From the IMG/VR virus record IMGVR_UViG_3300030109_000556, positions 1-20,139 of that record: DNA of 20,139 nucleotides; one strand, written 5' to 3'. A program made the position numbers and the translations under genes. This document shows positions 11,728 through 19,040 of this stretch, in pieces. The first letter of the stretch is position 1. Every line of letters begins with the position of its first letter. This stretch comes from a virus. Under the pieces are notes generated by a model. That model saw only the letters and a program-made list of their open reading frames with translations. It made no database searches and was not told the origin of the DNA.

Positions 11728-12966
11728 TTGGAAAATTTTAATTTTATAGAGTCTGCGGTTATCTTTAGTCTATGTGATTCAGGTAACTTCAAGAATTTTA
11801 CCCATTCTCCAAAGGATTTTGCAGAACATGGAGAAACTTATAAGTTCATTCAAGAATATATTGATGAATATACAGAATTTCCAACTCCTGAAATTTTATT
11901 AGAGAAGTTTGATACGCTTAAGCCTGACTCACAATCAGTTAATTTTAACTATGCATTGAATGAATTTAGTAAACAGGTTATGTTTAGAAATATAGTTAAT
12001 GCTTTTAATTCTAATCAAATGATGTTAGAAGACAATCCTAAAAAAGCATTAGGAATGATTATGGATGATCTAAATGATGTAGAGATATTGCATGATGAAG
12101 ATGTTAATCAATATGATAATGGTGGTTTAGATAGATATGAAGAGTGGCAACGTAGAAGTTCTATTAGAAAAATGGGAGATGGTTTGATAGGTATACGGAC
12201 TCCCTTTCATTTAGTTAATGCATCAGGAGTTGGTTGGCAACCCGGTGACTTAATTACGTCTTATGCTAGACCTACAGTGGGTAAAACATGGCTATGTTGT
12301 AAATTAGCAGCAGATGCTGTGCGTAGTGGGCATAAAACACTGCTTGTATCTACAGAAATGCCTACATCAGCTATAGCTTTGCGTATGGATGTGCTATTAG
12401 GGCATTCATTAGGCTATAAACTATCCCATAGTGCCCTTAGAAACGGTAAAGAGATAGATGAAGGCGAATATAAACGCTTTTTAGAAGAAGTAAACTATAA
12501 AAACCTACTAGTATGTGACCATATTAGTGGAGAGGATAGTATATCACTACCTAGTATTACTAATTTAGTGCGTAAGTATAGTCCCGATGTACTTATAATT
12601 GATGGGGTATACTTGATTTCTACATCAGATAAGAATAAAGCAGCGTGGGAACAATCACATTCATTGTTTTATGGATTAAAAACTATGGCATTGTCTACAA
12701 ATACTACAGTTATTGCATCAACCCAAGCCACTAGAGATGCAGCTAACATGTATAATCAGCCAACTGCGGGGCAAGTAGCTTTTGGAGATGCTTTGATTAG
12801 AGCTTCAGATGTAGCTATTTCAATGTGTATGGTTGAAGATGAACCGCAATTAAGAGAAATTATGTTTCAAAAATATAGAGATGGAGACTTAGGAGCTTCA
12901 ACCACTGAATTTCTTTGGGATGTAGATAAAGGTAGAATAGAGGAGAATCATGACACGTTTAGTTAA
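11728..12966 (+). CDS. DnaB-like replicative helicase
   Basis: A 412-residue protein starting at TTG 11728, two bases after the sigma-like stop; the next ATG in frame is inside the N-terminal domain, so the TTG is preferred. Residues 1-115 form a helical N-terminal domain of DnaB type. The RecA-like core has Walker A ARPTVGKT (180-187), the catalytic Glu in STEMP (E210, matching SLEM in DnaB), Walker B VLIID (288-292) and motif STQATRDA (331-338). The basic residues near 382-384 may provide the arginine finger. It is slightly shorter than bacterial DnaB (about 470). It should unwind DNA at the fork as a hexamer with the nearby CHC2/TOPRIM primase. The 3' end overlaps the zinc-ribbon gene by 17 bases. 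Confidence 0.9.
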   Translation: MENFNFIESAVIFSLCDSGNFKNFTHSPKDFAEHGETYKFIQEYIDEYTEFPTPEILLEKFDTLKPDSQSVNFNYALNEFSKQVMFRNIVNAFNSNQMMLEDNPKKALGMIMDDLNDVEILHDEDVNQYDNGGLDRYEEWQRRSSIRKMGDGLIGIRTPFHLVNASGVGWQPGDLITSYARPTVGKTWLCCKLAADAVRSGHKTLLVSTEMPTSAIALRMDVLLGHSLGYKLSHSALRNGKEIDEGEYKRFLEEVNYKNLLVCDHISGEDSISLPSITNLVRKYSPDVLIIDGVYLISTSDKNKAAWEQSHSLFYGLKTMALSTNTTVIASTQATRDAANMYNQPTAGQVAFGDALIRASDVAISMCMVEDEPQLREIMFQKYRDGDLGASTTEFLWDVDKGRIEENHDTFS

Positions 12967-14049: not shown

Positions 14050-14781
14050 ATGTCAGGAATCAGTATGATACAAAATAATATAACTAGTAAAGAAAATAGG
14101 TCGTCTCAATCTTCTGAGGCTAATGCTAAAGAAGTTTGGTTGAAAGATGGAGATCAGGTTTTTATGAAATCCATAGCCACAGGTGAAGAAGGCGATATAC
14201 ATATGGAGGAATTTTATGTATATGAATTTCAACAGGGGATTGACAAAGGTTGGACAAGTGTACTAGTAGAAAACGGCGAACCTGTCAGCACTGTACCAAG
14301 TGATGCAATGGTTTATGAAGATGGGAGAAAAAAATCTCCAAGACACAAATTTGCACTCTGGGGATATGTAACTGAAATATTACATACAGAACAGAGAGTT
14401 GATTCATGGGAAGAAATTACTAGCCCATCAGGATCAAAAATGTATAAAGAAACAGTGAATGATTTTAAAGTTTTGACTCTATCTTTTGGAGCACAGAATA
14501 GTAATTGGAATCAGTTTGTAGATATATACGAAGACAATGGTTCATTAGATAAGAACGTGATGAGAGTACGAAGAAGAGGTTCTAGTTTAGACACCACTTA
14601 TACAATTACTTCTACATCAGGAGCTCTGCAGTTACCTGAAGATAAACAAGCAGAGTTAAAGAATTTAACCCCGATTAAAGAGTATTTAAGTCAGAGATAT
14701 GGTGCTGTTGATACAATATCTTCTGATAATGTACCATCAGATGCCGTGAGCGTTGATGACGATGACGACTCTTTATTCTAA
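14050..14781 (+). CDS. Single-stranded DNA-binding protein-like, acidic C-terminal tail
   Basis: A 243-residue protein with AGGAGG at 14040-14045. The central region (about 28-180) is rich in strands and aromatics (VWLKDGDQVFM, EEFYVYEF, KFALWGYVTEI, VLTLSFGAQNSNW) and may form an OB fold. The C-terminus is VDDDDDSLF, an acidic run closed by Phe, as in bacterial SSB (DDDIPF) and T7 gp2.5, where it docks polymerase and primase. Location between primase and polymerase supports a replication role. I cannot trace a specific SSB subfamily, so the fold is inferred; the acidic tail is seen directly. Its last 26 bases overlap the polymerase frame. Confidence 0.72.
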   Translation: MSGISMIQNNITSKENRSSQSSEANAKEVWLKDGDQVFMKSIATGEEGDIHMEEFYVYEFQQGIDKGWTSVLVENGEPVSTVPSDAMVYEDGRKKSPRHKFALWGYVTEILHTEQRVDSWEEITSPSGSKMYKETVNDFKVLTLSFGAQNSNWNQFVDIYEDNGSLDKNVMRVRRRGSSLDTTYTITSTSGALQLPEDKQAELKNLTPIKEYLSQRYGAVDTISSDNVPSDAVSVDDDDDSLF

Positions 14782-16813
14782 GGTAACAACCTCCATAAAC
14801 GTGGACTCTCCGGTAGATACACTGTCGGAGAGTTTACATAATTTACCCATGATAGTAACACCAGATACATTTACAGATACTATAAATTCTTTACCTAAGA
14901 CCCCTATGTGGATAATGGACGTAGAGACAAATGGCTTTAATCCTTATGATATGCATCAGATATGTGGTATAGGTTTAGCCGATATTGATAGTGACCATGC
15001 ATATTACTTTCCTTTTAGGCATCAATCAGACGAGCCTAATTTATCACAAGATCAATTAAAACAATTAGTTGAGTTTATTAATAACACTTGTGAAACAGTT
15101 GTAGGATATAATGTAAAGTTTGATGCTAAATTTTTACACAATGAAGGTATAAATATAGATGCAATGAAGTTATTAGATGTTCTTGTTATGGTAAGAATGA
15201 CTGAGCCCACTACAATGAACAGGCTTAGTTTAACAGATACTTTGATAAGAACTTACGGAGAAAAAGCTGGGGCTTATGATTTAGAAACTAAAAAAGTTTT
15301 AAAGAAAAACAAATGGTTTAGAGACTTTTCTTTAGCACCCCCATCTGTTTTAGGACCATATTGTATAGATGATGTTAAGTGGACGCGTAAACTTTATAAA
15401 GATAGGCTAAGGAAAATAGTTACTAGTAATCAACTAGAGCTTTTTAACTTCCAAACAAAACTTACTAAAACTCTTTACATGATGGAAAGACGTGGCGTAG
15501 TTATAGATAACAAGTACGCTAAACAGGCTTACGATAAGACACTGACTAGAATAGATGTTTTAAAGAATAGAATATATGAATTAGTGGGGCATGAGTTTAA
15601 TATTAGTAGCACTAAACAACTAGGGGAAACATTTAATGCTATGGGTATACACTCTCCGTTACGCACTGCAAAAGGTGCTGAGGCGTGGAATGAAGAAGCC
15701 CTTGTAAGATTAAACTCACCACTAGCCGGATTGATAAGACAATACAGAGCATTAGAAAAGATAAGGTCTACATATATAGAGCCTTACTTAGAATTGCCTG
15801 TGCTTCACACTAGCTTTAATAATTGGGGTACAGTAACAGGTAGATTATCATCTAGCTCTCCTAACTTACAGAATATACCTAGAGATACGGTTTACGTAGA
15901 AGACAGGGAACTATCTGAATCTGATAAAGCAGATGTTAGAGATAGAGTTGCTGCTATAGTATCTAGTAAAGGTGGTAATTCAAGCACTGAACTAACTGAT
16001 GAAGTGTTAGATACATGGAGTTTTTTAGGTGGGGATAAGTTCAACGCTAATGACGATAGACAAATTGCTATTAGAAACTTGTTTATACCTAGAGATGACT
16101 ACAAAATGATAGCGTATGATTACTCTCAAATGGAAGTTAGAGTATTTATGAGTTATGTAAATAACGAAGAGATGAATGAATTGATGAAACAGGATGATGT
16201 TGACTTTCATGGAGAAGCGGCAAAGATAGCTTTTGATGTTACAGAGGATGACGAACAGTTTAAATTCTTTAGGCAACTAGCCAAGTCAATTACTTTTGGA
16301 GTTATATATGGTATTGGTAAAGATAAGTTAGCATTACAATTAAATACTACCCCTGATGAAGCTGCTCAATATAAAAATACATACTTAGAAAATATGAAAG
16401 GTTCTAGAAAATTCTTCAATGCTGTTATTAAAAAGATAAAAGCAGACGGTAGAGTTAGGAATAAGTATGGTAGAGTATATAGAGTACCTAGTGAATTTGG
16501 ATATAAGGGTGTTAATTACTTAATTCAAGGAACTAGTGCAGATATAATGAGTGAGCGTATGGTTGCTGTGGCAGAATACCTAAAGGATAAGAAGAGTAAT
16601 CTGTTACTACAAGTGCATGATGAGATTATCTGTGAGATACATAAAGATGAGGTAGATGAAGTAGCCCCTGAAATAAGAAGATTAATGAAAGAGAACACTC
16701 TTAATATACCACTAGAGGTGGATATGGAAGTATGTGACCCTTCATGGGCAGTAAAAAAAGATTTTGATGATATAAACAAGTTTAATTTAGAGGAGCATAT
16801 AGATTGGAGTTAA
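14756..16813 (+). CDS. polA: Family A DNA polymerase with 3'-5' proofreading exonuclease
   Basis: From ATG 14756 (685 residues; TTG 14753, ATG 14762 and ATG 14849 are alternatives). Numbering here counts from 14753. Exonuclease DEDDy motifs: D56-x-E58 (MDVETNG), N120/D124 (GYNVKFDAKFL), Y203-x3-D207 (GPYCIDDVKW). Polymerase motif A is DYSQME (Asp456), motif B is R507...K511...F515...Y519-G (RQLAKSITFGVIYG), and motif C is VHDE (His622, Asp623). The 5'-3' exonuclease domain of E. coli Pol I is absent, as in T7-type polymerases. A ~60-residue insert (378-438) sits between NLQNIPR and IRNLFIP before motif A. The C-terminus is FNLEEHIDWS, nearly matching the end of the next gene. It replicates the phage genome. 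Confidence 0.95.
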   Translation: MTMTTLYSKVTTSINVDSPVDTLSESLHNLPMIVTPDTFTDTINSLPKTPMWIMDVETNGFNPYDMHQICGIGLADIDSDHAYYFPFRHQSDEPNLSQDQLKQLVEFINNTCETVVGYNVKFDAKFLHNEGINIDAMKLLDVLVMVRMTEPTTMNRLSLTDTLIRTYGEKAGAYDLETKKVLKKNKWFRDFSLAPPSVLGPYCIDDVKWTRKLYKDRLRKIVTSNQLELFNFQTKLTKTLYMMERRGVVIDNKYAKQAYDKTLTRIDVLKNRIYELVGHEFNISSTKQLGETFNAMGIHSPLRTAKGAEAWNEEALVRLNSPLAGLIRQYRALEKIRSTYIEPYLELPVLHTSFNNWGTVTGRLSSSSPNLQNIPRDTVYVEDRELSESDKADVRDRVAAIVSSKGGNSSTELTDEVLDTWSFLGGDKFNANDDRQIAIRNLFIPRDDYKMIAYDYSQMEVRVFMSYVNNEEMNELMKQDDVDFHGEAAKIAFDVTEDDEQFKFFRQLAKSITFGVIYGIGKDKLALQLNTTPDEAAQYKNTYLENMKGSRKFFNAVIKKIKADGRVRNKYGRVYRVPSEFGYKGVNYLIQGTSADIMSERMVAVAEYLKDKKSNLLLQVHDEIICEIHKDEVDEVAPEIRRLMKENTLNIPLEVDMEVCDPSWAVKKDFDDINKFNLEEHIDWS
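14804..14834 (+). promoter_or_regulatory. Strong RNA hairpin at the SSB-polymerase junction
   Basis: GACTCTCCG...CGGAGAGTT forms a 13-position stem (14804-14816 with 14822-14834; 10 Watson-Crick and 3 G-U) closed by a 5-base loop. The outer arm includes an uninterrupted 8-bp perfect inverted repeat (14805-14812 with 14826-14833) and is GC-rich in an AT-rich region. No T-run follows, so it is not a simple intrinsic terminator. It lies 22 bases after the SSB stop and inside the putative polymerase N-terminus, before an alternative ATG at 14849. It could slow ribosomes, protect a processed mRNA end or set the polymerase level. Confidence 0.5.
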
Positions 16814-16814
16814 C

Positions 16815-17369
16815 ATGTTAAAATATGTACCAACAAATGAAACTTTTGAAGAAATAATTGTTACATCTAAAAACAGGGCTAAAAATTTAGGAGCATTAAA
16901 TAATTCAATACGTGAGGGTGCGGGTAATTTTGTAGGGTATGTAGGGCAAATATCTATTGCAAAACTATTAGGAATAGATGAAGTTGATACTTTTGACCAC
17001 GATTTACAATATCAAGACATGACTTTGGAAGTTAAAAGTAAAGATAGAACTGTAGACCCAGCTCTATATTATGATGCTAGTATTGCTAAAACAAGTATGC
17101 ATCAAAATCCAGATATCTATGTATTTGTATCTGTAACTATACCTGCAAATACAACCGCTATAGAAGCCATATGGATTATGGGTTGGATATCAAAAAAAGA
17201 ATATTTTAATAAAGCTACTTTTTATAAAAAAGGGGATATTGACCCTAGCAATAACTTTACTTTTAGAGCAGATTGTTATAATCTACCTTACAATAAACTG
17301 CACCCTATAAAAAAATTATTGCAACAACATAATCAATTTAAACTAGAAGAACATATAGATTGGAACTAA
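16815..17369 (+). CDS. PD-(D/E)XK nuclease-like protein
   Basis: A 184-residue protein one base after the polymerase stop; GGAG at 16806-16809 inside the polymerase end acts as ribosome binding site. Residues 37-54 (GNFVGYVGQISIAKLLGI) are the alpha-helix and G-x-x-G-Q motif seen before the core of many PD-(D/E)XK enzymes. Asp61 and/or Asp63 (FDHDLQY) and E72-V-K74 (LEVKSK) supply the metal-binding residues. The rest is mixed alpha/beta (IYVFVSV, AIWIMGWISKKEYF). It is probably a DNA endo- or exonuclease used in replication, recombination or host DNA breakdown. Its C-terminus FKLEEHIDWN closely matches the polymerase terminus, suggesting a shared partner. Exact substrate is unknown. Confidence 0.68.
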   Translation: MLKYVPTNETFEEIIVTSKNRAKNLGALNNSIREGAGNFVGYVGQISIAKLLGIDEVDTFDHDLQYQDMTLEVKSKDRTVDPALYYDASIAKTSMHQNPDIYVFVSVTIPANTTAIEAIWIMGWISKKEYFNKATFYKKGDIDPSNNFTFRADCYNLPYNKLHPIKKLLQQHNQFKLEEHIDWN

Positions 17370-17551
17370 TGAAAGTAATAGCAAGAAAAAACGAAACCTT
17401 TGAAAAACTACTTAGACGTTTTAAAAAGAACTTACAAAAAGATGATACTCTAAATACATACAGACAAAAACAAGAATTTGTACCTAAGAGTGTAAAAAGA
17501 CAACAACAAAAAGCTAATAAGCTAAGAAAGAGTAGGGAAAAAGATGTCTAG
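17369..17551 (+). CDS. rpsU: Ribosomal protein bS21 homologue
   Basis: A 60-residue basic protein starting at ATG 17369, overlapping the nuclease stop as TAATG; a TTG nine bases upstream is less likely. The N-terminus MKVIARKNETFEKLLRRFKK matches the bS21 signature (a strand, then NE-x-F-x2-x-LRRFK), followed by a Tyr/Arg helix and a Lys/Arg tail. Length fits bS21 (about 55-71). In bacteria bS21 binds the 30S platform next to the anti-Shine-Dalgarno end of 16S rRNA and aids initiation. Phage-encoded bS21 is known in marine phages, including pelagiphages. It may replace the host protein to favour phage mRNAs, which here have strong AGGAGG sites. The family occurs only in bacteria, which supports a bacterial host. 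Confidence 0.9.
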   Translation: MKVIARKNETFEKLLRRFKKNLQKDDTLNTYRQKQEFVPKSVKRQQQKANKLRKSREKDV

Positions 17552-17915
17552 TAAAGATGTATTCCATTGTGAAGAAAATGATGATGAAGTTATATACTAT
17601 GATGGACTAAAAGAAGCCTTTATAGGATTAGGATTTCAACAGTTTAACGGACCCTATGCTATATACGACAGAGAAAAAGCAATAGAAATAATTGCTAGGG
17701 ATTTTTATAAAGAAAAAAAGAAAGAATATGAATTTGAAAAAATGGGTGCAGAAGAAAAACTTAAAGTTGTACAAGATATAGGGGATGAAGCATATATGGA
17801 AGCAGTAGAATATTTTGAATACAATACTGAAGGAGCATGGATGGGGGATAGAACACCCATATTTGTAATTATGAAAGACTTATTAACACCAATAGAACCT
17901 ATAGAGGAGGACTAA
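17544..17915 (+). CDS. Hypothetical acidic protein
   Basis: A 123-residue protein overlapping the bS21 gene by 8 bases. It is acidic and helical, with segments KAIEIIARDFYKEKKKEYEF (about 46-65) and GDEAYMEAVEYFEYN, then EGAWMGDRTPIFV and a Pro/Glu-rich end. No cofactor or catalytic motif, signal peptide or membrane segment is visible. The general pattern resembles small conserved proteins of marine phages, without a known function. Its place in the replication/accessory operon suggests early expression. Confidence 0.6.
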   Translation: MSSKDVFHCEENDDEVIYYDGLKEAFIGLGFQQFNGPYAIYDREKAIEIIARDFYKEKKKEYEFEKMGAEEKLKVVQDIGDEAYMEAVEYFEYNTEGAWMGDRTPIFVIMKDLLTPIEPIEED

Positions 17916-18101
17916 ATGGCAGCAGCAGGATGGGAAAACCCAAAAGCCCCTTATGATTTTACACAAGGTATGTGGAATGATTATAATAAAAACTATTCAC
18001 ATTTATCATGGGAAGAATACATGCAGATGACAAAGTGGGGTATAAAAGAAATAGTAGATAAAACACCTAAAGAAGAAAATAAACAGTATAGTACCTTTTG
18101 A
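17916..18101 (+). CDS. Small hypothetical protein, possible upstream partner of a frameshift
   Basis: A 61-residue protein with GAGGAGG (17904-17910) ideally placed before ATG 17916. It is rich in Trp, Tyr, Asn and Lys (GMWNDYNKNY, WEEYMQMTKWGIKEIV) and ends KQYSTF just before TGA. No family is recognised. The end reads ACC TTT TGA T, so a +1 slip of the Phe codon on TTTT would enter the DUF3310-like frame that otherwise lacks a start. Either it ends here as a normal short protein or it supplies the N-terminus of a fused product. Confidence 0.6.
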   Translation: MAAAGWENPKAPYDFTQGMWNDYNKNYSHLSWEEYMQMTKWGIKEIVDKTPKEENKQYSTF

Positions 18102-18261
18102 TTACATACATGACAATCAGATGGGTTTTGCAGAGGGAAATGTGATAAAATATATAACAAGGTGGAGATACAAAGAGAATGGTATCGAAGACCTATACAA
18201 AGCAAAGCAATATATAGATATGTTGATAGCGAAGGAGCTAATAGATGACACTAATGGATGA
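18079..18261 (+). CDS. DUF3310-like protein with no normal start codon
   Basis: An open frame from 18058 to the TGA at 18259-18261 reads ...SIVPFDYIHDNQMGFAEG, then NVIKYITRWRYKENG and IEDLYKAKQYIDMLI. This matches the DUF3310 pattern (DYI ... F..GNVIKY..R...K.G.EDL.KA..Y...LI), a small helical family common in phages, sometimes called nucleotide-kinase-like, with no proven role here. The only ATG (18121) lies inside the conserved block and would remove VPFDYIHDN. Upstream codons offer only ATA. I give 18079 (ATA after AAGAAG) as a nominal start. Alternatives are a +1 frameshift from the preceding gene at TTT TGA (18096-18101), or a one-base sequence error. The 3' end overlaps the next gene by 17 bases. 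Confidence 0.55.
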   Translation: MNSIVPFDYIHDNQMGFAEGNVIKYITRWRYKENGIEDLYKAKQYIDMLIAKELIDDTNG

Positions 18262-18814
18262 TAAAAAAATATATAATATGAACGACCAAGTAAATGAAGG
18301 TAAAACAGGTGAGGAAAAAATACTACAATTACTTGAAGTTAGACATCCAAAAGCCAAAATTAAAGATGTTAGGAATGTGCAAAAATATAGAACAGACGAT
18401 ATAGATTTTGTTATTACTTTACCTAGTGGACAAACAAAAACAATAGAAGTTAAAACAGACAGCTACACCACGGGTAATTTTGCACTTGAAGAATGGAGCA
18501 CTAATCCAAAAAATACAGATGAATTTGGAGAATTTATTGAGGACGGCTCTGGAAGCATAGGGTGTTTTAGAAAAACTAAAGCAGATTATATATACTATTA
18601 CTTTTCAGTATGGGATTTGTTATTTGTTATGAAAACAAAGCCTGCTCAGGAATGGTTTGAGGAAGCAAGGCACACATTTGAAAGAAGCAATGTTTATAAC
18701 GAGGGGTACACTGGAAGTATAAGAAAAGTGCTTATAGGAGAAATGCAAATGGCACTTGGAGATGATAATATAAAAGAATATAAAAATATAACTAAGGAAA
18801 TAGAAAATGGCTAA
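18245..18814 (+). CDS. PD-(D/E)XK nuclease-like protein (second)
   Basis: A 189-residue protein with AAGGAG (18232-18237) before ATG 18245. Motifs follow the PD-(D/E)XK order: helix NEGKTGEEKILQLLEVRH with Glu18/Glu23, DDIDFVI with Asp54, then a strand and IEVKTD with Glu68 and Lys70, followed by TGNFALEEWSTN, a motif typical of phage nucleases of this class. The C-terminal half is aromatic (YIYYYFSVWDLLFVM). It is unlike the first nuclease (16815) outside the core, so they are not recent copies. Possible roles are end processing, recombination or host DNA degradation. Confidence 0.7.
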   Translation: MTLMDDKKIYNMNDQVNEGKTGEEKILQLLEVRHPKAKIKDVRNVQKYRTDDIDFVITLPSGQTKTIEVKTDSYTTGNFALEEWSTNPKNTDEFGEFIEDGSGSIGCFRKTKADYIYYYFSVWDLLFVMKTKPAQEWFEEARHTFERSNVYNEGYTGSIRKVLIGEMQMALGDDNIKEYKNITKEIENG

Positions 18815-19040
18815 AGTAGGATTAAAATTAGGATTTACGTTTAGAGTAGGTCCATTAGAAACCAATCAGTATGCAAGAATGGACATGGAGATTCATGACA
18901 TTGATACTGAACTACCAGTAGAAGAACAACTAGAAGAAGCGGGATTAACATTAGATAAAGCATATAAAGCAGTATATGATAAAGTTGATGGTGAGATTAG
19001 GGGAATCCTAAAGAAGGGTAAGAAGAAGGATGGAAGCTGA
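18807..19040 (+). CDS. Small hypothetical protein
   Basis: A 77-residue protein starting 8 bases inside the nuclease gene, with AAGGA nearby upstream. The first half has alternating strand-forming residues (KVGLKLGFTFRV, ARMDMEIHDI); the second half is helical (EEQLEEAGLTLDKAYKAVYD) and ends in a basic KKGKKK tail. This suggests a small beta-then-alpha protein that may contact nucleic acid. I do not recognise it. Its 3' end overlaps the next gene by 11 bases. Confidence 0.55.
   Translation: MAKVGLKLGFTFRVGPLETNQYARMDMEIHDIDTELPVEEQLEEAGLTLDKAYKAVYDKVDGEIRGILKKGKKKDGS

Follow-up and report, generated by a model that had tools for sequence, protein, structure and literature searches.

The window analyzed here is the whole stretch of 20,139 nucleotides from IMG/VR virus record IMGVR_UViG_3300030109_000556, in which a family A DNA polymerase gene is followed by a small ORF for a predicted nuclease and then by an S21-like gene. 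The features of interest are:

11728-12966, + strand: DnaB-like helicase, in the same module as the polymerase (PF03796, E = 1.4e-18)
14050-14781, + strand: likely SSB with its own acidic tip, DDDDSLF, unlike IDW (weak PHROG SSB matches; sequence)
14753-16813, + strand: family A DNA polymerase (3′-5′ exonuclease and DNA_pol_A), 686 aa (PF00476, E = 8.7e-81; PF01612; alignment of 46 sequences)
16775-16810, + strand: C-terminal tag of the polymerase, NKFNLEEHIDWS, core IDW at 16799-16807 (conservation among 46 polymerases)
16781-16813, + strand: left copy of the direct repeat on either side of the putative insert
16815-17369, + strand: putative inserted mobile nuclease gene, 184 aa, predicted PD-(D/E)XK fold (alignment, AF2 model, structure comparison)
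17331-17366, + strand: nuclease tail, NQFKLEEHIDWN, residues 173-184, core IDW at 17355-17363 (pLDDT; polymerase/S21 junction of relatives)
17337-17369, + strand: right copy of the direct repeat and apparent native polymerase/S21 junction (repeat search; L030 alignment)
17369-17551, + strand: S21-like gene (PF01165, E = 2.2e-9)

The C-termini of the polymerase (NKFNLEEHIDWS) and of the next ORF (NQFKLEEHIDWN) are identical at nine of 12 residues, as the first-pass annotation of this DNA had noted, and the synonymous codon differences that it listed (TTA/CTA, and GAG/GAA twice) are present. From amino-acid composition we estimate the chance of such identity between unrelated protein ends at ~1e-8; an estimate from random pairs, inflated by homologous genes, was set aside. 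The corresponding DNA is an imperfect direct repeat of 33 nt, 82% identical, the copies being 556 bp apart. The ends presumably resemble each other because they share descent via insertion and duplication.

Scans of IMG/VR with the polymerase, from close relatives outward, yielded about 100 distinct polymerases; the sequences are metagenomic contigs, several records overlap and the gene calls are simple. The triplet I-[DE]-W lies within the last ~25 residues in 84 of 86 sequence-distinct polymerase clusters (which are not independent of one another) from this uncultured marine phage group. Among the polymerases without it, those inspected show IVW in one case and LDW in the other. The conserved core of the polymerase end is IDW; FxLEEHIDW, resembling the [FL]-x-LEEHIDW that had been recommended for searching C-termini, is too narrow a motif. 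Between the end of the polymerase fold (…PSWAxK) and the tag lies a lineage-specific, unalignable linker of 15-41 residues, beyond which the proteins finish in …YIDWD, …HSIDWS, …EEAIDWE, …EDYIDWR and the like. In the alignment of 46 polymerases W685 is invariant and I683 at least 90% conserved. The AlphaFold model of the polymerase (overall pLDDT 85.8) predicts no secondary structure beyond residue 675, and its tail is of low confidence (pLDDT about 58-66). The simplest reading of these sequences is that the polymerase ends in a C-terminal short linear motif, which fits a docking peptide, and we infer that it probably tethers the polymerase to some other replication protein.

None of the C-termini of eight cultured phage polymerases (~25-28% identical) carries IDW, their ends being of the type ..NWGQ or ..DWGH; four of the eight adjoin an annotated beta-subunit gene. 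L360, L361, L363 and L364, cultured phages whose polymerases are related, have a gene annotated as DNA polymerase III beta subunit beside the polymerase and no IDW tail. Two papers on virioplankton polA make no mention of a C-terminal tag (PMC6302109, PMC9069017), and within the open-access literature covered the IDW tag is provisionally undescribed.

The S21-like gene comes directly after the polymerase in nearly all close relatives (…CATATAGATTGGGAC-TAATGAAAG). The alignment of these relatives to the window runs as far as 16807 and starts again at 17329, so that the one polymerase 3′-end that they have corresponds to both copies; for example, positions 1-899 of L030 align to window 15909-16807 and positions 864-1625 to 17329-18092. 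The right copy, encoding the nuclease tail, runs on as the native polymerase/S21 junction of the relatives, whereas the distal part of the left copy, at the polymerase end, departs from them (GAGGAGCATATAGATTGGAGT-TAAC). The distal part of the polymerase tag thus appears to have come with the insert. This weakens the earlier argument that the synonymous differences reveal a peptide under conservation, one of the copies having apparently been imported. The alignments indicate that the nuclease gene is an insertion of ~556 bp at the polymerase/S21 junction and that its tail is encoded, in frame, by the native polymerase 3′-end that the insert displaced. In a second lineage a related nuclease is found in L124 and L154 and is missing from L152, L153 and L155, in which the polymerase is almost the same.

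We consider it probable that these observations are explained by a conserved docking tag on the polymerase combined with insertion of a mobile nuclease gene that displaced the original polymerase end onto the nuclease. The polymerase would carry, on a disordered linker, a tag with the core I-D-W at or near its end. A mobile gene for a predicted PD-(D/E)XK nuclease, by its genetics of the free-standing homing type, would enter the polymerase/S21 junction, bringing a substitute polymerase end (GAGGAGCATATAGATTGGAGT-TAA). The original end (GAAGAACATATAGATTGGAAC-TAA) would be displaced in frame and become the C-terminus of the nuclease, as the comparison with relatives indicates. The tag of the nuclease would thereby be a consequence of the mode of insertion, and its in-frame IDW copy may in addition bring the nuclease to the phage replisome, which we rate somewhat below an even chance.

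Two further observations concern the same junction. At L134:12147-12698 (L134 and L151 are the same contig), 21 codons from the start of the S21-like gene stand, in register, in place of the first 21 of the nuclease, resulting in a 183-aa fusion between polymerase and S21; either alleles with and without the nuclease have recombined here, or the assembly is chimeric. The N-termini of the nuclease and the S21-like protein also share NETFE in register (MLKYVPTNETFE and MKVIARKNETFE; window 16815-16850 and 17369-17404). This start match is equaled by one of 862 other gene starts for the window, and by 16 of 862 for the weaker L124 case. The head of the nuclease may derive from that of S21; the window is suggestive, L124 less so, and we put no weight on this.

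A comparable anatomy is known from mobile ORFs of fungal mitochondria (atp6, atp9, cox2, nad3; Allomyces, Glomus), where an endonuclease gene at the 3′-end supplies a substitute C-terminus and the native one is displaced downstream (PMC3630166). The present case differs in that the host gene encodes a phage DNA polymerase, that the enzyme is a predicted PD-(D/E)XK rather than a LAGLIDADG or GIY-YIG endonuclease, and that the displaced C-terminus is a short tag fused in frame to the endonuclease. By its sequence organization the window insert appears to work like a fungal C-terminus-replacing mobile ORF but is not a member of that class. It would represent a phage case of this insertion anatomy: the end of an essential gene is exchanged for one that a mobile endonuclease gene brings, and the displaced end becomes the tail of the endonuclease. 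Displaced native C-termini in the fungal insertions are remnants (PMC3630166), and the same may apply here, the nuclease tail being displaced polymerase sequence without function on the nuclease. We regard this as a serious alternative, a little short of evenly balanced, and return to it below.

The ORF has no Pfam family match; it is a predicted nuclease on the basis of a PD-(D/E)XK model and conserved residues, namely D63 (17001-17003), E/D72 (17028-17030), K74 (17034-17036) and K76. In the alignment, D63, K74 and K76 are invariant and position 72 is acidic. The AF2 model, for which two rows from annotated records were excluded from the alignment, has a core with pLDDT of about 90, and residues 173-184, the tail, are disordered (<50). 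Its best VIA-align matches, at moderate Z values, are Eco15I/NhoI (Z 8.6-9.4) and Hjc (Z 7.7), but the residues of the active site are conserved. Sequence searches found no close relatives in bacterial genomes and none with a solved structure. Homologues occur in Ruegeria phage RpAliso, two spring-water phages and about 78 IMG/VR loci, and they lack the IDW tail, ending shortly past a conserved CYNL…L block. The tail therefore seems foreign to the nuclease family, since the out-group homologues do without it. The neighbors of these homologues, read from their sequences, presumably include T7-like polymerases, RNR and helicase-like genes. The vicinity of such genes is a usual site of phage homing endonucleases (PMC10448857, PMC2988022). 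As in T4-like and other phages with such enzymes (PMC2988022, PMC10448857), a small nuclease gene sits between conserved genes near polymerase/RNR, only some relatives carry it, and there is a recombination border. Unlike those cases, the insertion overlaps and duplicates the polymerase 3′-end, and the window nuclease, whose cleavage of a target is putative, belongs to a family not described as homing.

The divergence of the gene is discordant with that of its surroundings. Between the window and L124, dS is 0.67 for the nuclease versus 1.4-2.5 for helicase, primase, polymerase and SSB; between L246 and L247, the polymerases are 93% and the nucleases 50% identical, the reverse of window and L124. 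Because nuclease and polymerase divergences disagree in this way, the nuclease gene appears to be mobile. The window and L007 are nearly 100% identical at ~15600-17901, which covers the nuclease, and ~70-80% identical just upstream; this step alone is no proof of homing, since L009 and L010 show a similar one in the same place. The gene displays three features of a free-standing phage homing endonuclease: clean presence or absence among close relatives, a predicted nuclease fold with intact catalytic residues, and horizontal spread relative to its flanks. As a separate observation, the polymerases of L007, L008-L012 and L029 carry a ~45-residue insertion in the exonuclease region (732 aa), and their identity to the window climbs sharply at ~15560-15600.

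An HMM search for the nuclease, made blind to the tag, located six sequence-distinct forms directly behind the polymerase. The IDW tail is present in the window, L124, L213, L246/L252 and L247, and is absent from L201, which occupies the same place; the in-group nucleases L317, L318 and L321, lying away from the direct 3′ side of the polymerase, are without it. Overall, the tail occurs in five of the six nuclease clusters immediately 3′ of a tagged polymerase and in none of 42 elsewhere (Fisher P = 3.5e-6); for the in-group alone, the association of adjacency and tag gives P = 0.048. The L124 nuclease and an unrelated 100-aa ORF of L156, apparently a winged-helix protein, have NKFKIE[E/D]HIDWS in common, and TNDGIDW occurs in the nucleases of both L246 and L247. 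It seems that the cargo at the site is exchanged and the tail remains there. Within one phage the nuclease tail and the polymerase end agree only at IDW (FKIEEHIDWS versus ELVHSIDWS in L124; NDGIDWNSI versus EDHIDWDTVEV in L246). The first-pass annotation had named differing ends among relatives as evidence against a shared peptide: the ends do differ outside IDW (L124, L213, L246), but IDW itself is shared.

A frame-blind search reaching up to 1.5 kb behind 102 polymerases showed that the core copies which end a nuclease ORF are all in frame, with a stop 4-8 codons on, and revealed no clear out-of-frame displaced copies in this range. Given probably three to four independent events, the chance of all being in frame is ~0.01-0.04. 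This speaks against a functionless tail, as do the retention of IDW while its neighbors change (NDGIDWNSI / NDGIDWDSVKE / NDGIDWD) and of FK[LI]EEHIDW between nucleases whose linkers have diverged; in the window and L124 the tail is identical at 9/12 positions and the linker at 3/10. On the other side, L201 has a nuclease in the same place without the tag, and the tail could have been refreshed by recombination with other polymerase ends rather than kept by selection. A synonymous-site test on the tail alone showed no difference (1/8 versus 26/107, P = 0.68). Since the displaced copies found are all in frame and all keep IDW, the tail may act as a tag that draws the nuclease to the phage replisome; on these sequences we would put this slightly under evens. 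If the tail works, selfish genes would have a simple way to evolve a replisome address. A broader proposal is that this large marine phage group uses an undescribed IDW docking tag on its family A polymerase, and that mobile nucleases, as well as one or more other small genes, insert behind the polymerase and repeatedly capture the tag in frame, which would deliver them to the replication fork, the place of homing and repair; this is more speculative still, and we rate it less likely than not.

Conservation might also operate on the DNA. ATA encodes the tag Ile (window 16799-16801) in 71 of 84 clusters, and in 35 of 41 at looser clustering, against the 39-52% expected from the polymerase bodies. 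The bias hints at an added DNA-level constraint on TATAGATTGG, and the persistence of the tag in the polymerase might partly reflect it. That TATAGATTGG is conserved primarily because it serves in regulation or is targeted by a nuclease or by recombination, the peptide identity simply following, is improbable: ATAGATTGG is indeed common to the displaced copies, but lineages with ATT/ATC, GAC or IEW/LDW keep the peptide class, and frame and C-terminal position are maintained across linkers of 15-41 residues.

The first-pass annotation had interpreted both ends as T4-like docking tags. This holds for the polymerase, where a tag follows a variable linker in nearly all relatives, but not for the nuclease, whose copy appears to be a displaced polymerase 3′-end. 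In T4 the clamp-binding ends of gp43, gp55 and gp33 are interchangeable between proteins, and a divergent linker has been described for gp55 (PMC2988020). The likeness lies in a hydrophobic-acidic C-terminal peptide on a replicative polymerase, a divergent linker, and a second protein that shares the peptide. Here, in contrast, the polymerase is of family A, the core is IDW, the second carrier is a mobile insert instead of a resident factor, and no phage clamp was found, DnaN (PF00712) and PCNA (PF00705) profiles being unmatched in six contigs with positive controls; it is docking that we infer. Were both proteins resident replication enzymes, with selection keeping a tag in each as in T4 gp43/gp55/gp33, the conserved polymerase tag, the in-frame tagged nucleases of several lineages and the better preservation of the nuclease tail than of its linker would all be expected. 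This is nevertheless unlikely: the nuclease is present or absent among near-identical phages, the rest of its family lacks the tail, the repeat and flanks have the structure of an insertion, and large contigs hold no other tagged replisome protein.

In three contigs of 81-85 kb the polymerase is the only convincing tag carrier, and among these and 1489 ORFs no convincing others were found beyond ORFs directly 3′ of the polymerase. The helicases of L194 and L290 (ends YEWGDF and FEWGDF), a 55-aa ORF in L252 and an 82-aa ORF in G001 (TIDW end) were judged chance matches. With lone polymerase carriers in large contigs and untagged nuclease homologues elsewhere, a general replisome tag is not supported by the contigs and ORFs scanned. 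Nor do the polymerase tails, ending in IDW, contain the bacterial beta-clamp motif (Q-x-x-L-x-F / QLxLF). The gp45 profile PF02916 had no match in the contigs, its positive control being silent too. The C-terminal tip of E. coli SSB and the acidic tails of T7 gp2.5 and gp4 are acidic-aromatic and dock replication proteins; here, by contrast, the tail is on the polymerase and Trp-based, and the phage SSB has its separate DDDDSLF. For these abundant uncultured phages, in whose contigs no phage clamp turned up, IDW at the end of the replicative polymerase is a conserved, testable candidate for an interaction peptide and gives a starting point for learning how that polymerase stays at the fork.

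Some minor observations concern genes downstream of the polymerase. The polymerase of L200 ends in IDWGN, and the next gene (L200:4727-5227) has, 35 nt further on, IDWG close to its N-terminus (MQVLNTEDKKSWIDWG); this is perhaps another duplication. Most of the loci examined encode, downstream of the polymerase, a protein of 72-77 aa (MAKVxxxLGFTFRVG...; window 18807-19040 and equivalents) without a Pfam match, a possible replication accessory factor. Upstream of this conserved 77-aa gene, window 18245-18814 and L002:11011-11439 hold different ORFs with EVKT-type motifs in the same place, which may be a second site where nuclease-like genes are swapped.
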